This document shows positions 17,070-25,916 of a stretch of 43,706 bases of DNA, one piece after another (the first letter of the stretch is position 1; each line of letters starts with the position of its first letter). This DNA comes from Fidelibacterota bacterium. GTDB taxonomy: Bacteria > Fidelibacterota > Marinisomatia > SCGC-AAA003-L08 > D37C17. The position numbers and the translations under genes were made by a program. The notes under the pieces are model-generated. The model made no database searches. It was given only the letters and a program-made list of their open reading frames with translations, and was not told where the DNA came from. The stretch is taken from assembly GCA_004124405.1 (NCBI GenBank), contig SCKP01000010.1, forward strand, positions 1-43,706, given 5' to 3'.

Positions 17070-18503
17070 TTACACATTCAATGTTTCCATAAACTCTACT
17101 GCGTTCATCTCTTCACAGTTGAAAATAGTTTCTTTCAATTGTTTTTTTGCAGAAGCATCAAATTTATCGCCTGCCAGTGAATTAAACTTATTTTCTAGAT
17201 CATCCATGGTCATAGGCTCCCTGGGATCACCTTTCGGATATTCCAGGTATTCTTCAAACATTCTGCCATCATTGGTAGTGACCACAACCCTTGATGGCTG
17301 TTTAGCTGGGAACATCTTTTCAAATTCCTGTGAGGGTTCTCCAATTATTTTATCAATGACCTCATAAATCCGTGGATCATTTAGTTTTTCATCTGAAAAT
17401 GAATCGGTGGTTATTTTCTTATCTACCATAGCCACGGCCATACAATAGGGCAGGGAGTGATCTGCCGTTTCCCGTGATTCCGGCCGGTATTTGGTGGGGT
17501 CAAAAAGGATATCATATGCCTGTGCAAAGCAGGTCACTTTAACCTCTTTAATATCCGAATATTCCAGGTTATTTCCAATCATAGCATTGAGTACACAAGA
17601 GAGGTGGGTGTGGGTTAGGGCTTCGGTGGGGAAGGCTTTCATGCTGCATTCCATAATTTTATAGCTGTCTCCCAATCCCCCCACTAGAGCATCAATATCC
17701 CAACTCCATGAGGAAACACCATCACGGCCTTCCATATCTGTTGGTTTCAATGATTCGTCTTTTGCATTCCAGCCAATGAAGGTATCCATGAAACCTTCTT
17801 TTCCCTCAAATACCTTCTCAGTACCGGAAAATCCTTTTTGAGCCATGAGTGCTGCAAATACGCCAGATTGTACTGCCATTGGGTCAACGGTATTTTTCAT
17901 CATGGTAAGTTTACCCGCGGTGGGACAGCCAATGGTATGATTATGACAGCCACTGATTCCAATGGCATGCACCATTTCATCAACCGTTAAGCCTAAGAGT
18001 TTACCGGCCACTATAGGTGAAACAAATTGGGTGAGAGTGGCATGATGCCATTTCCTTTCCCGCACACCTGGTTTGGCAAAGAGGCAGAGGCGCTGCTCAA
18101 ATTCATATGCCAAAACGATGGCAACGATGACATCCTTCATATTGGTATTTACCAGTTCTCCAACAGCCCAAGCTGCAGGAATAATATCTGATGGATGGGA
18201 AGGGTCATCTTTCCAGTAAATATCATTAAAATCCAATGCTCGTACCATAAGAGAATTAATAAGAGTTGCATTTACAGCTGGAAGTTTATCACCAAATCCT
18301 AGAACGGTGGCGTCACCTTTTCCGCCTATATCAATGTAAATATCCCGAATGATATTCAAGTCTTTTGTATGATACCCGCCATAGGCGCAGCCAATGGAAT
18401 CGTACATATAACGCTTTACCTCATTAACAACCTCTTCTGGAAGGTCTGCAAATTTTAGTGAAACTGCAAATTCAGCCATTTGTCTTGAAATTGATTTATT
18501 CAT
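17070..18503 (-). CDS. MmgE/PrpD family protein (2-methylcitrate dehydratase-like)
   Basis: 477 residues. The family core is clear: DFNDIYWKDDPSHPSDIIPAA near residues 90-110 (DFND..HPSD motif) and HHATLTQFV further on. Family members include 2-methylcitrate dehydratase PrpD, cis-aconitate decarboxylase and iminodisuccinate epimerase, so the reaction cannot be fixed from sequence. No prpB or prpC is present. In this setting, between an isocitrate-dehydrogenase-like gene and thrC and downstream of citrate lyase and a homoaconitase-like enzyme, a tricarboxylic acid substrate is likely. A good AAGGA site precedes the ATG, nine bases after the upstream stop. Confidence 0.85.
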   Translation of the reverse strand: MNKSISRQMAEFAVSLKFADLPEEVVNEVKRYMYDSIGCAYGGYHTKDLNIIRDIYIDIGGKGDATVLGFGDKLPAVNATLINSLMVRALDFNDIYWKDDPSHPSDIIPAAWAVGELVNTNMKDVIVAIVLAYEFEQRLCLFAKPGVRERKWHHATLTQFVSPIVAGKLLGLTVDEMVHAIGISGCHNHTIGCPTAGKLTMMKNTVDPMAVQSGVFAALMAQKGFSGTEKVFEGKEGFMDTFIGWNAKDESLKPTDMEGRDGVSSWSWDIDALVGGLGDSYKIMECSMKAFPTEALTHTHLSCVLNAMIGNNLEYSDIKEVKVTCFAQAYDILFDPTKYRPESRETADHSLPYCMAVAMVDKKITTDSFSDEKLNDPRIYEVIDKIIGEPSQEFEKMFPAKQPSRVVVTTNDGRMFEEYLEYPKGDPREPMTMDDLENKFNSLAGDKFDASAKKQLKETIFNCEEMNAVEFMETLNV

Positions 18504-18511
18504 TTATTTCC

Positions 18512-19708
18512 TTATAATTTTGCAATAATGGCATCAGCCATTTCTGTCGTAGAAGCAGCCCCTTTTTCAACTACATCGGCTTTTCCCGTCATTTTAGCCA
18601 TATCATAGGTTTTTACTTTTCCTTCTGATACCACCTTCGACACTGCTTTTCTTATTTTTTTAGCAATTTCCTGCTCATCAATAAAATCCAGCATCATGCA
18701 GGATGATTCAACCATGGCAATTGGGTTTACTATGGAAACAGGGTAGTCTGCATATTTAGGTGCGCTGCCGTGCGTAGGTTCGAAAACACCAATGCCAGTT
18801 TCTGGATTATATTGGGCGCTGCAGGCAAATCCCAGTCCGCCGATGAGCCCGGCAAAGCCGTCAGAGACAATATCGCCAAACATATTGCCTGCTACAATAA
18901 CACCGTAATTTTCCGGGTTCTTAGTAAGCCACATCATCTGGGCATCAATATTGGTATTCCACAGTTCAATTTCCGGAAAATCAGCTTTTTGCATCTCTTG
19001 CGCCATTTTGCACATCATACCTGAAGTTTCTCGAATTACATTTGGTTTTTCACAGACAGTAACCGATTTATATCCATTATTTTTAGCATGTTCAAAGGCG
19101 GCACGGAGAATTCTCTCTGTACATTTCTTAGTAAAGATTCTGGTGGAAACCGAAACCTCCTCAACCGGTGCATCACCAAAATTCTGTCTAAATTTAGGAT
19201 GAGTCATAAGCGCATCATATACTTGTTTTGGCGGATTACTCCATTCTACTCCGCCGTAGAGACCTTCGGTATTCTGCCGGAAAATAGCCACATCAACTTC
19301 CGGTTCCTGGATTGAATCATTGGGGCCACGGCGAATAAAGTTTAAGGGGTTGCCTTTGTAAGTTCGGCAGGGACGTAGGCAAATATCCAATCCGAAATGC
19401 TGGCGAAGTCCCACAATGGGGCTGGAATAGACCAAGCCTTTCTCCTGAAGTTCAGGAGAAAGCTCATTAAATGCTTCATCCTTGGGTTTGGATGTAATGG
19501 CGCCGAACAGACCGATTTTATGTTCAGCGATAAGATCAAGTGTACGCTGGGGCAGGGGATTACCTTCACTGCGCCAGAATTCCCAGCCGATATCTCCTTC
19601 TACATAATTTGCTTCAAATCCAGCGGCATCCAGTACCTTGATAGCTTCATCTAATACTACTTTTCCGATACCATCTCCCGGCATGGCTACTATGGTTCTT
19701 TTTGACAT
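18512..19708 (-). CDS. Isocitrate/homoisocitrate dehydrogenase family enzyme
   Basis: 398 residues of the beta-decarboxylating dehydrogenase family. Conserved: GDGIG near 11-15, LRQHFGLDICLRPCR from 101 (substrate arginines), QNTEGLYGGVEW near 145, and GNMFGDIVSD from 274 (metal aspartates). The segment resembles bacterial isocitrate dehydrogenase, but the usual Asn in the S-x-N-x-x-x-R substrate motif is Ile98 here. APKYA (316-320) has the Lys-Tyr pair linked to NADP preference in the E. coli enzyme. Isocitrate is the leading substrate, homoisocitrate the alternative. The start ATG has an AGGAG site. Its place after a Lys4-like enzyme is consistent with consecutive steps. Confidence 0.82.
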   Translation of the reverse strand: MSKRTIVAMPGDGIGKVVLDEAIKVLDAAGFEANYVEGDIGWEFWRSEGNPLPQRTLDLIAEHKIGLFGAITSKPKDEAFNELSPELQEKGLVYSSPIVGLRQHFGLDICLRPCRTYKGNPLNFIRRGPNDSIQEPEVDVAIFRQNTEGLYGGVEWSNPPKQVYDALMTHPKFRQNFGDAPVEEVSVSTRIFTKKCTERILRAAFEHAKNNGYKSVTVCEKPNVIRETSGMMCKMAQEMQKADFPEIELWNTNIDAQMMWLTKNPENYGVIVAGNMFGDIVSDGFAGLIGGLGFACSAQYNPETGIGVFEPTHGSAPKYADYPVSIVNPIAMVESSCMMLDFIDEQEIAKKIRKAVSKVVSEGKVKTYDMAKMTGKADVVEKGAASTTEMADAIIAKL

Positions 19709-19753: not shown

Positions 19754-21733
19754 CTAGTCTTTGTTAATTCGCTCCTTCACCCAGTTTTCCAACCCTTTAG
19801 TAAGAATCAGTTCCTGGGCAGCAGTGCCAACCGGATTGATTGGATACTTCTTGCCCCCAATGCTTATTTTACAATTTTTGAAATCTACCTGCATTTTCCA
19901 TCCCGTTTTAACTGATAATTTAGTTTCTCCAAATTCTGATTTTAGATCGGCTAATAACTCCGGAACCTCAATAACTAGGAATCCATTATTGATGGCGTTT
20001 CGTTTATAGGTTTGACTGAATGAGCCAGCCATCACCATTTGGATGCCTCTATACATTAGGGAAGTGGCTGCCTGCTCCCGGGAGGAGCCGGTACCAAAAT
20101 TATAACCCCCAACGATAATATCTCCCTTCTCCACAATCTTCTCAAATTCTGGATCATAATTTTCCATTACAACTTTTGCCATTTGCTCAGGAGTAAAATC
20201 ATCAATATATGTATATTTGCCGGGATAAATTCCGTCCGTATTCAGATTATCCTGATAGCAAAAAATAATTTCACCCTCTAATAATTCAGGAAAACCTTCC
20301 AATAATCTAACACTGCCTTCTCCGGTTTCAGGTTTTTCATTTACAGTAATTTGTCCATCTGGAGCGCTATTTTCAAATTCAAAGGGAGGAGCTATTTTCC
20401 CAGCAATGGCAGATGCCGCCACCACAGAGGGGGATGCCAGGTAAGCTTCAGCAGTGGGATCTCCCATTCTACCCTTAAAATTTCGGTTGGTGGCAGAAAT
20501 ACCCACCTCACCGGGTCCCAGCAACCCAACGCCCAGCCCAATACAGGGACCACATCCTGGCGGTAGGGGAGTGGCTCCGGCATCTACAAGCGTCTGCCAA
20601 TCACCCCTGGTTTCACTTTCTGCTTGTACTTCACTGGATGCTGCTGCAATATAAAATTCTACTCCTGCTGCAACCTTTTGCCCTTTAATCACTTTTGCAG
20701 CATCAGCCAGATCCTGAACCCGGCTGTTCACACAGCTTACAAGATAGGCTTTATCAATTTTGATATTTTTACCTACGGCATCATATAAACTGGTCATTAT
20801 CTTAACATGATTGGGGCCGGATATATGGGGGCTTACCGAGCCTAGGTCCAACCTGATTTCTTTGGTATAAAAGGCTCCGCTATCTGCTTTGAGTGGATTG
20901 GTTATTAATCTTTCAATTCTGACATGATTAATTCGGGGATGACTGCCATTTTCTCCATCATTATCAGAGGGTACACCTTCTAATCCACGCTTGCTGATAA
21001 ATTCTGCCCTATTCTTAAGCCAGTTGGCAGTGATTTCATCGCTGGGAAATACTCCTGCCAAAGCTCCCCACTCCGTAGTCATATTGGCAATGGTTAGTCT
21101 TTCATCAATACTTAAATATGCGATTCCATCTCCAATAAACTCCAGTACATGGTTTAATACTTCATCATTGTTAAACAGGCCGCATAGAGTAATGATGATA
21201 TCTTTGCCGGTTACACCTTTGCGTAGTTTACCGATCAGCTCCACTTTGGTAATGGGAGGGACCTGCCACCAAGTCCGTCCGGTTGCCCAGAGTGCAGCAG
21301 CATCCGTTCGCACAACGGGTGTCCCCAGACATCCCAATCCGCCATACATATTAGAGTGGCTGTCAGACGCCACGGCTAAGGTCCCAGGCCAGGCATAGCC
21401 TTCCTCACACATAATTTGATGACCTATACCTCTACCAGCAGGATAGAAGTCAACTCCCATTTCCTTACCAAATGCTTCAATTCCGGCATATTTTTTTAGA
21501 TTCGTTTCGGATTTATCCTGCACATTATGGTCCAGTGTGAACACAGGCTGCCGTGGATTGGCCATCTTACTGGCACCGATGGCTTTGAATTTTCCCATCA
21601 CTGCGCCGGTATTATCATGGGTCATCACATGGGTTGGTTGTATGGATATAAAATCACCAGATTTTACTACATGCCCAGGTTCTAATCCCACTGCATGTTG
21701 CTGTACTATTTTTTCAATAAGTGTTTGAGTCAT
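19754..21733 (-). CDS. Aconitase-family hydro-lyase, Lys4 (homoaconitase)-like
   Basis: 659 residues with large and swivel domains in one chain. Cluster cysteines are C334 (LVSCVNSR), C394 and C397 (PPGCGPCIG); the swivel domain has GTGSSREQA. Several long stretches match what I recall of fungal mitochondrial homoaconitase Lys4: YPAGRGIGHQ, SDSHSNMYGGLG, TWWQVPP, TIANMTTEWGALAG and GEVGISATNRNFKGRMG. The length equals Lys4 without its presequence. It could act on homocitrate, citrate or both; with citrate lyase and an isocitrate-dehydrogenase-like neighbour, citrate/isocitrate interconversion is plausible. The family is certain; the Lys4 relation is from memory of that sequence and should be tested by a tree. 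Confidence 0.88.
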   Translation of the reverse strand: MTQTLIEKIVQQHAVGLEPGHVVKSGDFISIQPTHVMTHDNTGAVMGKFKAIGASKMANPRQPVFTLDHNVQDKSETNLKKYAGIEAFGKEMGVDFYPAGRGIGHQIMCEEGYAWPGTLAVASDSHSNMYGGLGCLGTPVVRTDAAALWATGRTWWQVPPITKVELIGKLRKGVTGKDIIITLCGLFNNDEVLNHVLEFIGDGIAYLSIDERLTIANMTTEWGALAGVFPSDEITANWLKNRAEFISKRGLEGVPSDNDGENGSHPRINHVRIERLITNPLKADSGAFYTKEIRLDLGSVSPHISGPNHVKIMTSLYDAVGKNIKIDKAYLVSCVNSRVQDLADAAKVIKGQKVAAGVEFYIAAASSEVQAESETRGDWQTLVDAGATPLPPGCGPCIGLGVGLLGPGEVGISATNRNFKGRMGDPTAEAYLASPSVVAASAIAGKIAPPFEFENSAPDGQITVNEKPETGEGSVRLLEGFPELLEGEIIFCYQDNLNTDGIYPGKYTYIDDFTPEQMAKVVMENYDPEFEKIVEKGDIIVGGYNFGTGSSREQAATSLMYRGIQMVMAGSFSQTYKRNAINNGFLVIEVPELLADLKSEFGETKLSVKTGWKMQVDFKNCKISIGGKKYPINPVGTAAQELILTKGLENWVKERINKD

Positions 21734-21814: not shown

Positions 21815-22348
21815 TTATGCTTTAAAAGGTTCAAAGGATACGAAGTCTGCATGATGTACGATTATGGATTCCACAGTCCGTTTGCCTAAATCACCTTCCT
21901 TAGAATGAGTGCCGATAATATGTTGAACTTCTGGGGGTAAACCGAATCGGGCGGCAATGGCTACACCGCTGAATGGATGCCGGACGATCTTACCATAATC
22001 ACTGGTAGTTAGTTTCCCTTCTACAATTTCATATTCAAGTAATTTTCCAATATCTATGAGAATGGCGCCAGAAATCAATACATCCATATTCACCTTGATT
22101 TCATCACCAAAATTAGCCATCATTTTTTTAGCCATATCCACCGCCAGTTGAACGCATGTCCGTTTGTGATTCATAAATGAAATATTGCAGTCCTTAATGA
22201 GCAATGAAAAGGGAATTTCCTCTAAATCCTTTGGCTCTAAGGGACTGTTCTCAATGGCATATACCCATGCGTCCAGGGTTTTGTTTCGCAAGCCTTCATC
22301 TTTAATCCAATTAATTTCTGGCCAAATTTTAAAAACTTTGTCTTTCAT
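21815..22348 (-). CDS. HD-domain protein with a degenerate metal site
   Basis: 177 residues. The pattern follows an HD phosphohydrolase: H61 (NHKRT), then SGAILIDIGKLLEY, HPFSGVAIAARFGLP (H124), IIGTHSKEG (H143/H148) and HHADF (165-169). At the position of the name-giving His-Asp pair, residue 98 is Ile, so the pair is Ile98-Asp99, while the other histidines and aspartates remain. Activity is therefore uncertain, and the protein may bind rather than cut. An AAAGGA site precedes the ATG. It sits between citF and the homoaconitase-like gene on the same strand, which suggests an accessory or regulatory role in that module, but no direct evidence shows this. Confidence 0.75.
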   Translation of the reverse strand: MKDKVFKIWPEINWIKDEGLRNKTLDAWVYAIENSPLEPKDLEEIPFSLLIKDCNISFMNHKRTCVQLAVDMAKKMMANFGDEIKVNMDVLISGAILIDIGKLLEYEIVEGKLTTSDYGKIVRHPFSGVAIAARFGLPPEVQHIIGTHSKEGDLGKRTVESIIVHHADFVSFEPFKA

Positions 22349-22419: not shown

Positions 22420-23985
22420 TTAGCGGTTCACTTTAAATATAGAATCTAACACCGTTCCATCCACCCATTTAACTACGCCTACCACTTCATCAGAGAAAAT
22501 TGGTTTATCTAATGGAGCGCCGACTAAATCATCAACTTCTCCCTTAATCTCTTCGATCCTGCGAAGGGGTAAACCGCTTCTCTTGGTCGCCTTAATGAGA
22601 TCTTCACGCCGGGGATTTATTGCAATTCCTCTTTCTGTTACAATTACATCTATGAGTTCGCCAGGTCCCACCAAGGTAGTGACTTCATCTACAATAATAG
22701 GGATTCTATTTCTAAAGGATGGAATAGGTAGAATAGTGCATTTACTGGAAAGGCAATTCTGCCAGCCACCAATACCGTGCAGCATTTGTCCATCAGAATG
22801 GGTGACAACATTGGCATTAAAATTGATGTCCACTTCAGTGGCTCCTAAAACGACAGCATCCAGCATGGAGGCAAAATTTCCCTTTCCATGCCAATTATAA
22901 CTGGTGAAAGGGGAAGTATTTACATGACCAGAATTTTCCCGCATGGAGCGCACACCTTCTAAATCAAAAGTCTGGCCATCCAGAATATAATCGGTTAATC
23001 CTTCTTCAAGCATCTCAACCAGGTATTTGGTAGAGCCACCCCGGATAAATCGAGCCTTGATACCTGCCTCAATCATCATTTCTTTTAAATAAATGGCAAA
23101 GGCAAGAGCGGTACCGCCAGCGCCGGACTGGAAGCTGAAACCAGCTTTCATAATGCCGGCAGCCTGGACAAATTTAGCGGTAAGTTCAGCAATATACAAA
23201 CGATCTGGGGATTTGGTAAGAAGAGTTGTCCCGGATACAATTTTGTCAGGATCACCAATTTTATCCATCACCACCACATAGTCTACATTATTTCCTTGTA
23301 TTTGCCAGGGGATGCAGGGGAAGTCCACCAAATTATCGGTAACCACTATTACTTTATCAGCATAGAGAGAATCAACCAATCCAAAGCCTAACAAGCCGCA
23401 GGCTGAGGGACCTCTGTCACCAGTGCAGTTGCCAAAGGGATCTGCAGTGGGAGCCGCTATTACGGCAACATCAATATGGACTTCACCATCCTGAACTGAT
23501 TGCCAACGCCCGCCGTGGGATCGAAGAACAGCCAATCCGTTCATTTTACCATCGGAGGCATATTTCCCAAGAGGTCCATTCATGGAGCCTTCAATATGGC
23601 TAATGACTCCATTTTCCATGTGCTTAATCATGGGTTCATGGCAAGGGAATGAAGCTGAGGGGAACCAGCGTAATTTCTTTTTCCCCATTTTAGCCAATAT
23701 ATCAAAGACCTGATTCATTACCAGGTCACCATTGCGAAAATGATGATGATTGGAAATGGTCATTCCATTTTTGATATTACACTTATCAAGGGCTTCCTTA
23801 AGGGAAGAAACTACTTTATCTCCAGAGGATGGAAAATCTTGGCAGGTTCGGATAGGAGGAGCCGCTTTAACTCCATTTGGTGAATGTTTACCAATACCTT
23901 TAAAGGGAATTGATTTAACACCATTTACTATGGTGGGTACCATTCTTCCGGCTTTGTTTTTAATTAATTTGAGTTTCTGTCCCAT
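22420..23985 (-). CDS. citF: Citrate lyase alpha subunit (citrate CoA-transferase)
   Basis: 521 residues, full CitF length. CitF exchanges the acetyl group on the acyl carrier CitD for citrate, making citryl-ACP. Recognised stretches include SNHHHFRNGD, IEGSMNGPLG, LRSHGGRWQ, GDRGPSACGLLGFG, SFQSGAGGTALAFA and VTERGIAINPRR. It follows the CitD-CitE fusion gene in the same orientation after 81 bases, so the two supply all three lyase subunits. No citC, citX or citG (activation and prosthetic-group genes) occurs in the window. The ATG at 23985 lacks a strong Shine-Dalgarno sequence. Confidence 0.93.
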   Translation of the reverse strand: MGQKLKLIKNKAGRMVPTIVNGVKSIPFKGIGKHSPNGVKAAPPIRTCQDFPSSGDKVVSSLKEALDKCNIKNGMTISNHHHFRNGDLVMNQVFDILAKMGKKKLRWFPSASFPCHEPMIKHMENGVISHIEGSMNGPLGKYASDGKMNGLAVLRSHGGRWQSVQDGEVHIDVAVIAAPTADPFGNCTGDRGPSACGLLGFGLVDSLYADKVIVVTDNLVDFPCIPWQIQGNNVDYVVVMDKIGDPDKIVSGTTLLTKSPDRLYIAELTAKFVQAAGIMKAGFSFQSGAGGTALAFAIYLKEMMIEAGIKARFIRGGSTKYLVEMLEEGLTDYILDGQTFDLEGVRSMRENSGHVNTSPFTSYNWHGKGNFASMLDAVVLGATEVDINFNANVVTHSDGQMLHGIGGWQNCLSSKCTILPIPSFRNRIPIIVDEVTTLVGPGELIDVIVTERGIAINPRREDLIKATKRSGLPLRRIEEIKGEVDDLVGAPLDKPIFSDEVVGVVKWVDGTVLDSIFKVNR

Positions 23986-24066: not shown

Positions 24067-25275
24067 TCAATTTTTCTTCCAATTTTTATTGAGTAACTTT
24101 GTAGAAATTGCTAATTCCACAGTATGTAAAGCCCGTTTCACTACTGGCGGATCTATCATTTTACTGCCCAGCGACACCACACCTAACCCTTTTGTTTCTG
24201 CCTCATCAAATGCCAAAACAACCTTTTTAGCTTTTTCAATTTCAGATATAGTAGGAGCAAACTCTTCATGAATGGGTCTAATCTGCCGGGGATGGATGCA
24301 GCCCTTGCCATCAAAGCCTAATTCTTTAGCCTCTTGCACAGAAGACCTCAATCCCTCATCATCACCCACATCACTGAAAACTGTGTCAATTGCCTGTATC
24401 CCAGCAGATCGGGCAGCATTTACAACCTGGCTTCTGGCAAATAAGGATTCCCTGCCCTGATTCGTCCGTTGTACGCCGATGTCGGCAGTGTAATCTTCTA
24501 ATCCGATTGCTATGGCTACATTATTTTTACTGGCTTTGGCAATTTCTAAACTATTTAGTATCCCCTTTGCACTTTCCAGGATGGGCATGAGATAGACCGG
24601 TTCTTTTCTACCACAATCCTTTCTGATATTCTGGATTTTATCATCCACTGCTTTTAGCTGTTTGGCATTTTCCACTTTTGGTACCAAAATGAGGTGTACA
24701 TTATGTGGAACGATCGCTTCTAAATCTTTCAATCCCAATTTCCCCTGGTTAATTCGTACCATCCGCTCTGCACCAAAAAAATCAAGTGTCATCAGGGCAT
24801 TCCGTACAATTAAGCGGGCGGCATCCTTTTCCGAGGGCGTCACTGAATCCTCCAAATCAAGAATTACCGCATCTGGTTTATGAATTCCGGCATTGAGCAT
24901 GAGTTTTGCCTGGTTACCGGGAAGATACAGACGGCTCCGACGGAAGCGATCTCTTGCAGATTTATAATGAACATGTTTGTTGAAGAGTGGAAGAGATTCG
25001 TTTATAGTGCCGGGGTGAGCTGCTTTTATTACAGCCTCAATTCGTGCCTGAAGGACAAAATACTGTCCACCATTATCAAATACAGAAAGTTTTCCATGTT
25101 TTATTTTCAGGTCAGTAAGCGATTTTTGAGAAGTACTTTCTAATTTTGAAAGGTGGAGAACCTTGGTTTTAGATTGGATATCAATATTGATTCCACCAGA
25201 ATTTGCAGGCACAAATTCTACAAAAAAATCTGACTTAGTTGTTGGATTTCCGCTGGTGAAATTCTTCTTTGGCAT
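24067..25275 (-). CDS. citE: Citrate lyase acyl carrier-beta subunit fusion (CitD-CitE)
   Basis: 402 residues. Residues about 7-90 look like the acyl carrier CitD: KSDFFVEFVPANSGGINIDI, then LSVFDNGGQYFVLQARIEAV. Ser15 in KSD aligns with the prosthetic-group serine of E. coli CitD. Residues about 112-395 are a full CitE (citryl lyase): SRLYLPGN, DLEDSVTPSEKD, EDYTADIG, ARSAGIQAIDTVFSD, GFDGKGCIHPRQI and GLGVVSLGSKM. CitD and CitE are normally separate proteins in the citrate lyase complex, so this is a natural subunit fusion, with citF next door. CitE alone is certain; the CitD part rests on pattern and the conserved tail. It is the first gene of the - strand module. Confidence 0.88.
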   Translation of the reverse strand: MPKKNFTSGNPTTKSDFFVEFVPANSGGINIDIQSKTKVLHLSKLESTSQKSLTDLKIKHGKLSVFDNGGQYFVLQARIEAVIKAAHPGTINESLPLFNKHVHYKSARDRFRRSRLYLPGNQAKLMLNAGIHKPDAVILDLEDSVTPSEKDAARLIVRNALMTLDFFGAERMVRINQGKLGLKDLEAIVPHNVHLILVPKVENAKQLKAVDDKIQNIRKDCGRKEPVYLMPILESAKGILNSLEIAKASKNNVAIAIGLEDYTADIGVQRTNQGRESLFARSQVVNAARSAGIQAIDTVFSDVGDDEGLRSSVQEAKELGFDGKGCIHPRQIRPIHEEFAPTISEIEKAKKVVLAFDEAETKGLGVVSLGSKMIDPPVVKRALHTVELAISTKLLNKNWKKN

Positions 25276-25448: not shown

Positions 25449-25916
25449 ATGAAGTATTTTTCAATTATATATTATAGTGTCTTAATGGTATCATTGTCAT
25501 TTATGGCAGAACATCCTGAACATCCTGAACACCCAGAGCACCCGGAGCATCCAAGTAAAAAGACCTCCCAAATTTCTGCGCAGGCTGTTGGAAAGGCTGT
25601 GGCTGAATTTATAGCAAGTGATGCAAAATTAAAAGGAGGTAAATTCATGGTGTTTGATGGATCTGCTAAAGAAGTACTGCAGCTGGATCTACTTAAAATT
25701 CACATGGATAAACTCACCGGCTTAGGAAATGATTCCTATTTTGCCTGTGCTGACTTTAAGGCTTCAAATGGGAAGGTCTACGACTTGGATATTTTCATGA
25801 ATGGCGAATCAACCGATGACTTAGCTGTGACGGAAATTTCTGTTCATAAGGAAGATGGGGTAGAACGCTATGGCTGGCAGGAAAATAGTGGAGTTTGGGT
25901 AAAAGTGAATAAATAA
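25449..25916 (+). CDS. Small exported protein with five Glu-His-Pro repeats
   Basis: 155 residues. A signal peptide of about 20 residues (IIYYSVLMVSLSFMA) is followed directly by EHPEHPEHPEHPEHP (21-35), then a globular domain of about 110 residues ending in GWQENSGVWVKVNK. If cleaved after Ala20, the mature protein starts with the repeat, giving a histidine-rich end that might bind metal ions. Short exported proteins with AEHP-type starts occur in several phyla, without known function. A GGAG site precedes the ATG. It is divergent from the citrate lyase gene and shares the 173-base gap at 25276-25448. Confidence 0.7.
   Translation: MKYFSIIYYSVLMVSLSFMAEHPEHPEHPEHPEHPSKKTSQISAQAVGKAVAEFIASDAKLKGGKFMVFDGSAKEVLQLDLLKIHMDKLTGLGNDSYFACADFKASNGKVYDLDIFMNGESTDDLAVTEISVHKEDGVERYGWQENSGVWVKVNK
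25509..25553 (+). repeat. Nine-base tandem repeat, five copies, in coding sequence
   Basis: Five consecutive nine-base units of the form GAACATCCT encode Glu-His-Pro. The first two copies are identical at DNA level; the next three differ only at synonymous sites (CAC, CCA, GAG, CCG). The array is in frame, so gain or loss of a unit would not break the gene. Confidence 0.85.

Follow-up and report, generated by a model that had tools for sequence, protein, structure and literature searches.

The window (the whole 43,706 nt stretch of Fidelibacterota DNA analysed here) probably encodes a citrate lyase of two chains, a fused CitDE protein and CitF, which has given up the covalent cofactor and uses free CoA thioesters. 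Its CitD domain, its CitE metal-binding and lid residues and its CitF are all homologous to those of the classical, ATP-independent CitDEF of E. coli, Klebsiella and Enterococcus, an enzyme with an unusual covalent cofactor and dedicated maturation genes. In contrast to the classical enzyme, CitD and CitE are here one chain, Ser14 of CitD is replaced by Arg or Lys, and there is no CitG or CitX and probably no CitC.

The fused gene is located at positions 24067–25275 on the reverse strand, starts with ATG and encodes 402 aa with no internal stop; the forward-strand translation of this interval is closed. Its CitD-like (acyl-carrier) domain, residues 14–85 (25021–25236), is matched by the Pfam profile PF06857 (CitD/MdcC carrier) at 30.6 bits (E 4.1e-7; cut-off 25.1), and the NCBIfam profile TIGR01608 (citD) spans residues 14–86 only below its equivalog cut-off (35.4 against 63.5 bits). 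The CitE (lyase) domain, residues 110–391 (24103–24948), is spanned by the NCBIfam profile TIGR01588 (citE), likewise under the equivalog cut-off (299.9 against 443.4 bits), and the Pfam profile PF03328 (HpcH/HpaI lyase family) covers residues 113–329 with an E of 5e-58. Within the phylum, which is also named Neomarinimicrobiota/Marinimicrobia or SAR406, the CitD domain is present in 88 of 245 genomes, with 91 matches; 86 of these are in frames of 389–528 aa, and the remaining five are shorter because a contig end cuts them off. Every readable copy (86/86) thus has CitD joined to CitE in place of a separate small subunit, and the 245 genomes yielded no split CitD. These counts rule out a chance match or a mis-assembly, and the fusion, first proposed in the initial annotation of this DNA, is confirmed.

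Structure prediction with AlphaFold2 gave a pLDDT of 95.8 and a pTM of 0.92 for the whole fused chain, and 93.4 and 0.85, respectively, for the CitD domain by itself. The domain is confidently predicted to be folded and packed, with strands at residues 16–23, 29–35 and 61–69 and helices at 38–55 and 72–86. MdcC, the carrier of malonate decarboxylase, was absent among the first 50 Foldseek matches of the CitD domain, the majority of which were EF-G or entries for ribosomal protein S9. EF-G domain IV is given as a top neighbour of MdcC itself (PMC5534430), and the EF-G matches of the predicted domain are consistent with, rather than direct proof of, kinship with MdcC. In the CitE part, E142-D143, R174, E234, D261 and D375 are invariant or nearly so among 60 aligned proteins, so that the Mg ligands (Glu, Asp), the Glu-Asp pair, the Arg and the lid Asp are all present in the fused chain. 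The equivalent residues of malyl-CoA lyases bind Mg and catalyse (PMC3832036). The fold of the model matches CitE-like structures at an E of about 1e-24. Solved relatives of the CitE part are CLYBL, a citrate lyase β subunit (1sgj) and malyl-CoA lyases.

The gene for CitF, the citrate lyase α subunit (acyl/CoA transferase; 521 aa), adjoins the fused gene at 22420–23985 on the same strand. PF04223 is covered over profile positions 2–466 of 466 (E 2.6e-135), whereas TIGR01584 falls 0.35 bits short of its cut-off (501.1 against 501.45 bits). The protein matches the solved CitF structures 2hj0 (E 2.6e-123) and 1xr4 (E 1.6e-107) and is 38% identical to E. coli CitF. Both genes are found together in 86 of the 92 Fidelibacterota genomes that carry either one; two genomes have the fused gene only, four CitF only and 153 neither, and as these genomes are related by descent and not independent, a Fisher p-value for the co-occurrence is only indicative. 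Of the 74 related loci with enough sequence, 68 have citF downstream of the fused gene and in the same orientation.

Further genes follow citF on the reverse strand. A small HDIG-motif protein of 177 aa (21815–22348; TIGR00277, E 2.8e-9) is present in most related loci with enough sequence, adjoins citF in the cassette across many phyla, and is possibly regulatory for the lyase. Next are an aconitase-family hydratase of 659 aa (19754–21733; PF00330), an isocitrate dehydrogenase family protein of 398 aa (18512–19708) and an MmgE/PrpD family protein of 477 aa (17070–18503; PF03972, PF19305). The hydratase scores as homoaconitase-type despite adjoining citrate genes (TIGR00139, 883 bits; cut-off 530). 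The MmgE/PrpD protein scores far too low to pass the cut-off of any known 2-methylcitrate dehydratase equivalog; its gene is a frequent member of the cassette and is conserved in many related loci. In many loci the cassette comprises fused CitDE, CitF, the HDIG protein, aconitase and isocitrate dehydrogenase, often with MmgE/PrpD. Upstream of the fused gene, at 25449–25916 on the forward strand, is a 155 aa protein in which an apparent signal sequence is followed by a series of His-Pro-Glu repeats.

The genome of the window, searched family by family, holds one citrate synthase, two aconitase-family genes (the second, of 779 aa, located elsewhere) and, as the sole PF00180 member found, the isocitrate dehydrogenase of the cassette. 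With this cassette and gene complement, the lyase falls at the citrate node of central metabolism. In one family (f23), all 12 genomes searched are without a PF00285 citrate synthase and keep fused CitDE and CitF; they include G003, G006, G021 and nine others, with loci L130 and L131.

A CoA-dependent lyase of the same build could instead have a substrate related to citrate, such as 2-methylcitrate, citramalate or homocitrate. The homoaconitase-type hydratase next to the lyase, with another aconitase elsewhere in the genome, would suit such a substrate, yet in other groups the adjoining aconitase is of a different type (28–40% identity) and the association with the lyase persists. The MmgE/PrpD protein in the cassette, and the scores of CitE and CitF under the curated equivalog cut-offs (CitF by a fraction of a bit), also point towards a citrate relative, but the isocitrate dehydrogenase of the cassette, having no other PF00180 counterpart among the genes found, probably serves the main cycle. 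A citrate relative as the substrate is judged unlikely.

The dedicated maturation genes of the classical enzyme appear to be missing. CitX (PF03802) and CitG (PF01874) were each found in 0/80 genomes bearing the fused gene, with positive E. coli controls; 42 of these 80 genomes have a completeness of 90% or more, two of them in a single contig. The genome of the window likewise has neither gene. CitG was found in 1 of 46 genomes of other groups, where it sits in a canonical operon of a Coatesbacteria genome. Matches to PF08218 (CitC) occur in 67 of the 80 genomes, nearly all in frames of 159–235 aa that match part of the model only, as against 352 aa for E. coli CitC. By length and coverage these are judged, short of proof, to be cross-matches rather than CitC, and they are read as probable CoaD-like nucleotidyltransferases. 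The genome of the window has no PF08218 match. In tblastn searches with E. coli CitC, CitX and CitG, no match was found in any of the best 80 related loci, and none of the three genes is among the neighbours of the fused gene in the window.

The fate of the carrier serine was examined in a MAFFT alignment of 87 fused proteins with seven canonical CitDs (E. coli, Enterococcus, Melissococcus, Gluconobacter, two from Klebsiella, and Azospirillum), its register set by the invariant Asp16, beside which there is no gap. In canonical CitD the prosthetic group is attached to Ser14. This position is Ser in all seven canonical sequences and in none of the 87 fused proteins, which have Arg in 65, Lys in 17, Gln in 3 and Gly in 1, one row being truncated there. 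The fused protein of the window has Lys14 (codon 25234–25236, reverse strand) at this position. The next column, that of Ser15 (codon 25231–25233), is Ser in six canonical CitDs and Gly in one, and Ser in 81, Gly in 3 and Ala in 2 fused proteins. The Gly belongs to E. coli CitD, which agrees with Ser14 as the attachment site; as E. coli CitD is a working carrier via Ser14, Ser15 is the neighbour of the site and not the site itself. In malonate decarboxylase, the equivalent Ser25 of MdcC is documented as the modified carrier residue (PMC5534430).

The initial annotation had read the locus as a CitD–CitE fusion with citF next door, the whole lyase in two chains, no citC, citG or citX nearby, and Ser15 as the prosthetic-group position. 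All of this holds apart from the last point, which is off by one residue, Lys14 being aligned with Ser14. A one-residue deletion that would make Ser15 the counterpart of Ser14 is disfavoured by a single Coatesbacteria genome (G268) that has both a canonical CitD with VESSDC and a separate fused protein with VRSDC, and by the proteins without Ser15, which carry Gly in the five genomes examined from genus g62 and Ala at two loci (L067 and L078).

Most simply, Ser15 is not modified. Its retention in all but a few of the fused proteins is nevertheless beyond what a plain spacer would seem to need, and as a feature of the alignment it counts against the use of free CoA. Together with the invariant Asp that follows, and with the predicted fold of a domain kept under purifying selection, it would fit a lyase that is still a covalent carrier, whose prosthetic group sits on Ser15 and is made by enzymes from outside the CitG and CitX families. 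Such a carrier is improbable, since E. coli CitD manages with Gly in this column, CitX and CitG are absent from all 80 genomes searched, and citF still adjoins the fused gene in the Gly15 and Ala15 loci wherever the contig permits, along with much of the cassette in some of them.

Selection on the CitD domain is evident from a dN/dS of about 0.12, alike for the CitD and CitE domains (within the genus; one unsaturated pair, G157–G158). The CitD domain is under purifying selection, and a decaying relic is rejected on this value, albeit from a single pair. The lower mean pairwise identity of the CitD domain (45%, against 68% for CitE) might suggest a functionless remnant beside a CitE that works alone as a generic CitE-like acyl-CoA lyase, but this is very hard to reconcile with a dN/dS equal to that of CitE, with retention of the domain in every readable copy and across many phyla, with the tight co-occurrence with CitF and with a confidently predicted packed domain.

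The data directly show the fusion, the lack of Ser14, of CitG and of CitX, the selection on the CitD domain, the strict co-occurrence with CitF and the gene neighbourhood; we infer the use of free CoA, a docking role for the CitD domain, a role for Arg/Lys14 and the direction of flux. In the proposed free-CoA lyase, CitF would replace the acetyl group of acetyl-CoA with citrate, so that citryl-CoA forms and acetate is released, and the CitE domain would split citryl-CoA into oxaloacetate and acetyl-CoA. As the second step regenerates acetyl-CoA, acetyl-CoA would turn over as a catalyst. The former carrier would persist as a rigid part of the CitE chain and serve to dock CitF onto CitE. Its Arg/Lys14, which has replaced the serine of the cofactor, may bind CoA non-covalently at the phosphate end. 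That a basic residue at the site of the former cofactor-phosphate link binds the CoA phosphate end is put forward as a hypothesis. With the adjoining aconitase and isocitrate dehydrogenase, citrate, isocitrate and 2-oxoglutarate could be linked to acetate and oxaloacetate.

In 1975, Dimroth and Eggerer are said to have found that the subunits of classical citrate lyase use free CoA thioesters. Biochemically characterized CitE-like enzymes use free acyl-CoA (PMC3832036). Family II transferases, the type of CitF, act through a ternary complex with no covalent enzyme intermediate (PMC5534430; PMC9196870), so that a free CoA thioester could replace the acyl carrier. MdcD-MdcE of malonate decarboxylase decarboxylates malonyl-CoA, with an activity substantially weaker than that of a dedicated enzyme (PMC5534430), and free-CoA activity of this kind may be weak. 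Unmodified MdcC still bridges the malonate decarboxylase complex (PMC5534430), which suggests a docking role for the fused CitD domain.

Malonate decarboxylase (MdcA-MdcC-MdcD/E) is built along similar lines: it combines a family II acyl transferase and a catalytic unit with MdcC, a carrier from the CitD family that bridges the subunits (PMC5534430). It differs in that MdcC is separate and has its modified Ser25, and in that the catalytic unit is a decarboxylase and not CitE. The CitE-like CoA lyases (malyl-CoA lyase, CLYBL, RipC and M. tuberculosis CitE) share the lyase fold and active site, act on free acyl-CoA substrates and are the best structural matches to the model, the annotated solved members matching the CitE part only. 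We know of no solved CitE-like CoA lyase with either a CitD domain or a CitF partner. Citryl-CoA synthetase and citryl-CoA lyase of Hydrogenobacter cleave citrate in two steps via free citryl-CoA, as is proposed here; the first step there uses ATP and an enzyme similar to succinyl-CoA synthetase, in contrast to the CitF-type transferase of the two-chain lyase.

Relatives in named genomes were surveyed as the best 80 of 229 loci. Besides Fidelibacterota, about ten other phyla are represented within these 80: the fused form occurs in Eisenbacteria, WOR-3, Aminicenantes, KSB1 and Calditrichota, and also in Planctomycetota/Phycisphaerae, Chloroflexota/Anaerolineales, Cloacimonadota, Electryoneota, Coatesbacteria and some further groups. 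The majority of the genomes are metagenome-assembled, so single odd placements (one 'Thermoplasmatota' and one 'proteobacterium') are untrustworthy. A maximum-likelihood tree built on the CitE part sets the fused proteins apart from seven canonical CitEs, with a support of 100/97. The Coatesbacteria canonical sequence has a very long branch in this tree; it comes from a canonical citC-D-E-F-G operon (locus L146, 4240–8858) in the genome that also has the fused form, and this CitE may act on another substrate. In the genus of the window the fused gene occurs in only four members, and the other listed genomes of its small-genome family (f1) are without it, a pattern that suggests loss or local gain. 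The fused form is not a one-genome curiosity; it is the sole form found in the phylum and is widespread beyond it.

A literature search that covered few subscription papers yielded no description of fused CitD-CitE. In the Marinimicrobia clade SHBH1141, a 'citrate lyase' together with 2-oxoacid:ferredoxin oxidoreductases has been reported as a reductive TCA cycle, and the relevant passages of that study do not describe a fused CitD-CitE (PMC5688066). We tentatively raise the possibility that the fused form represents a class of citrate lyase that is widespread yet has escaped description. In this class the carrier would have become a non-covalent CoA-holding domain by fusion and by replacement of Ser with Arg or Lys. 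The enzyme would serve the central carbon cycle of many uncultured phyla, next to aconitase and isocitrate dehydrogenase, and in the family without PF00285 it would be what cleaves, or possibly forms, citrate. If so, this large natural group, with carrier, transferase and lyase retained but the attachment serine and the maturation genes lost, would illustrate the conversion of a covalent carrier enzyme into one that works with free CoA. The genes annotated as 'citrate lyase' would then have to be reread wherever the metabolism of Marinimicrobia and other uncultured phyla is reconstructed, and claims of reductive TCA cycles in these organisms would be affected.
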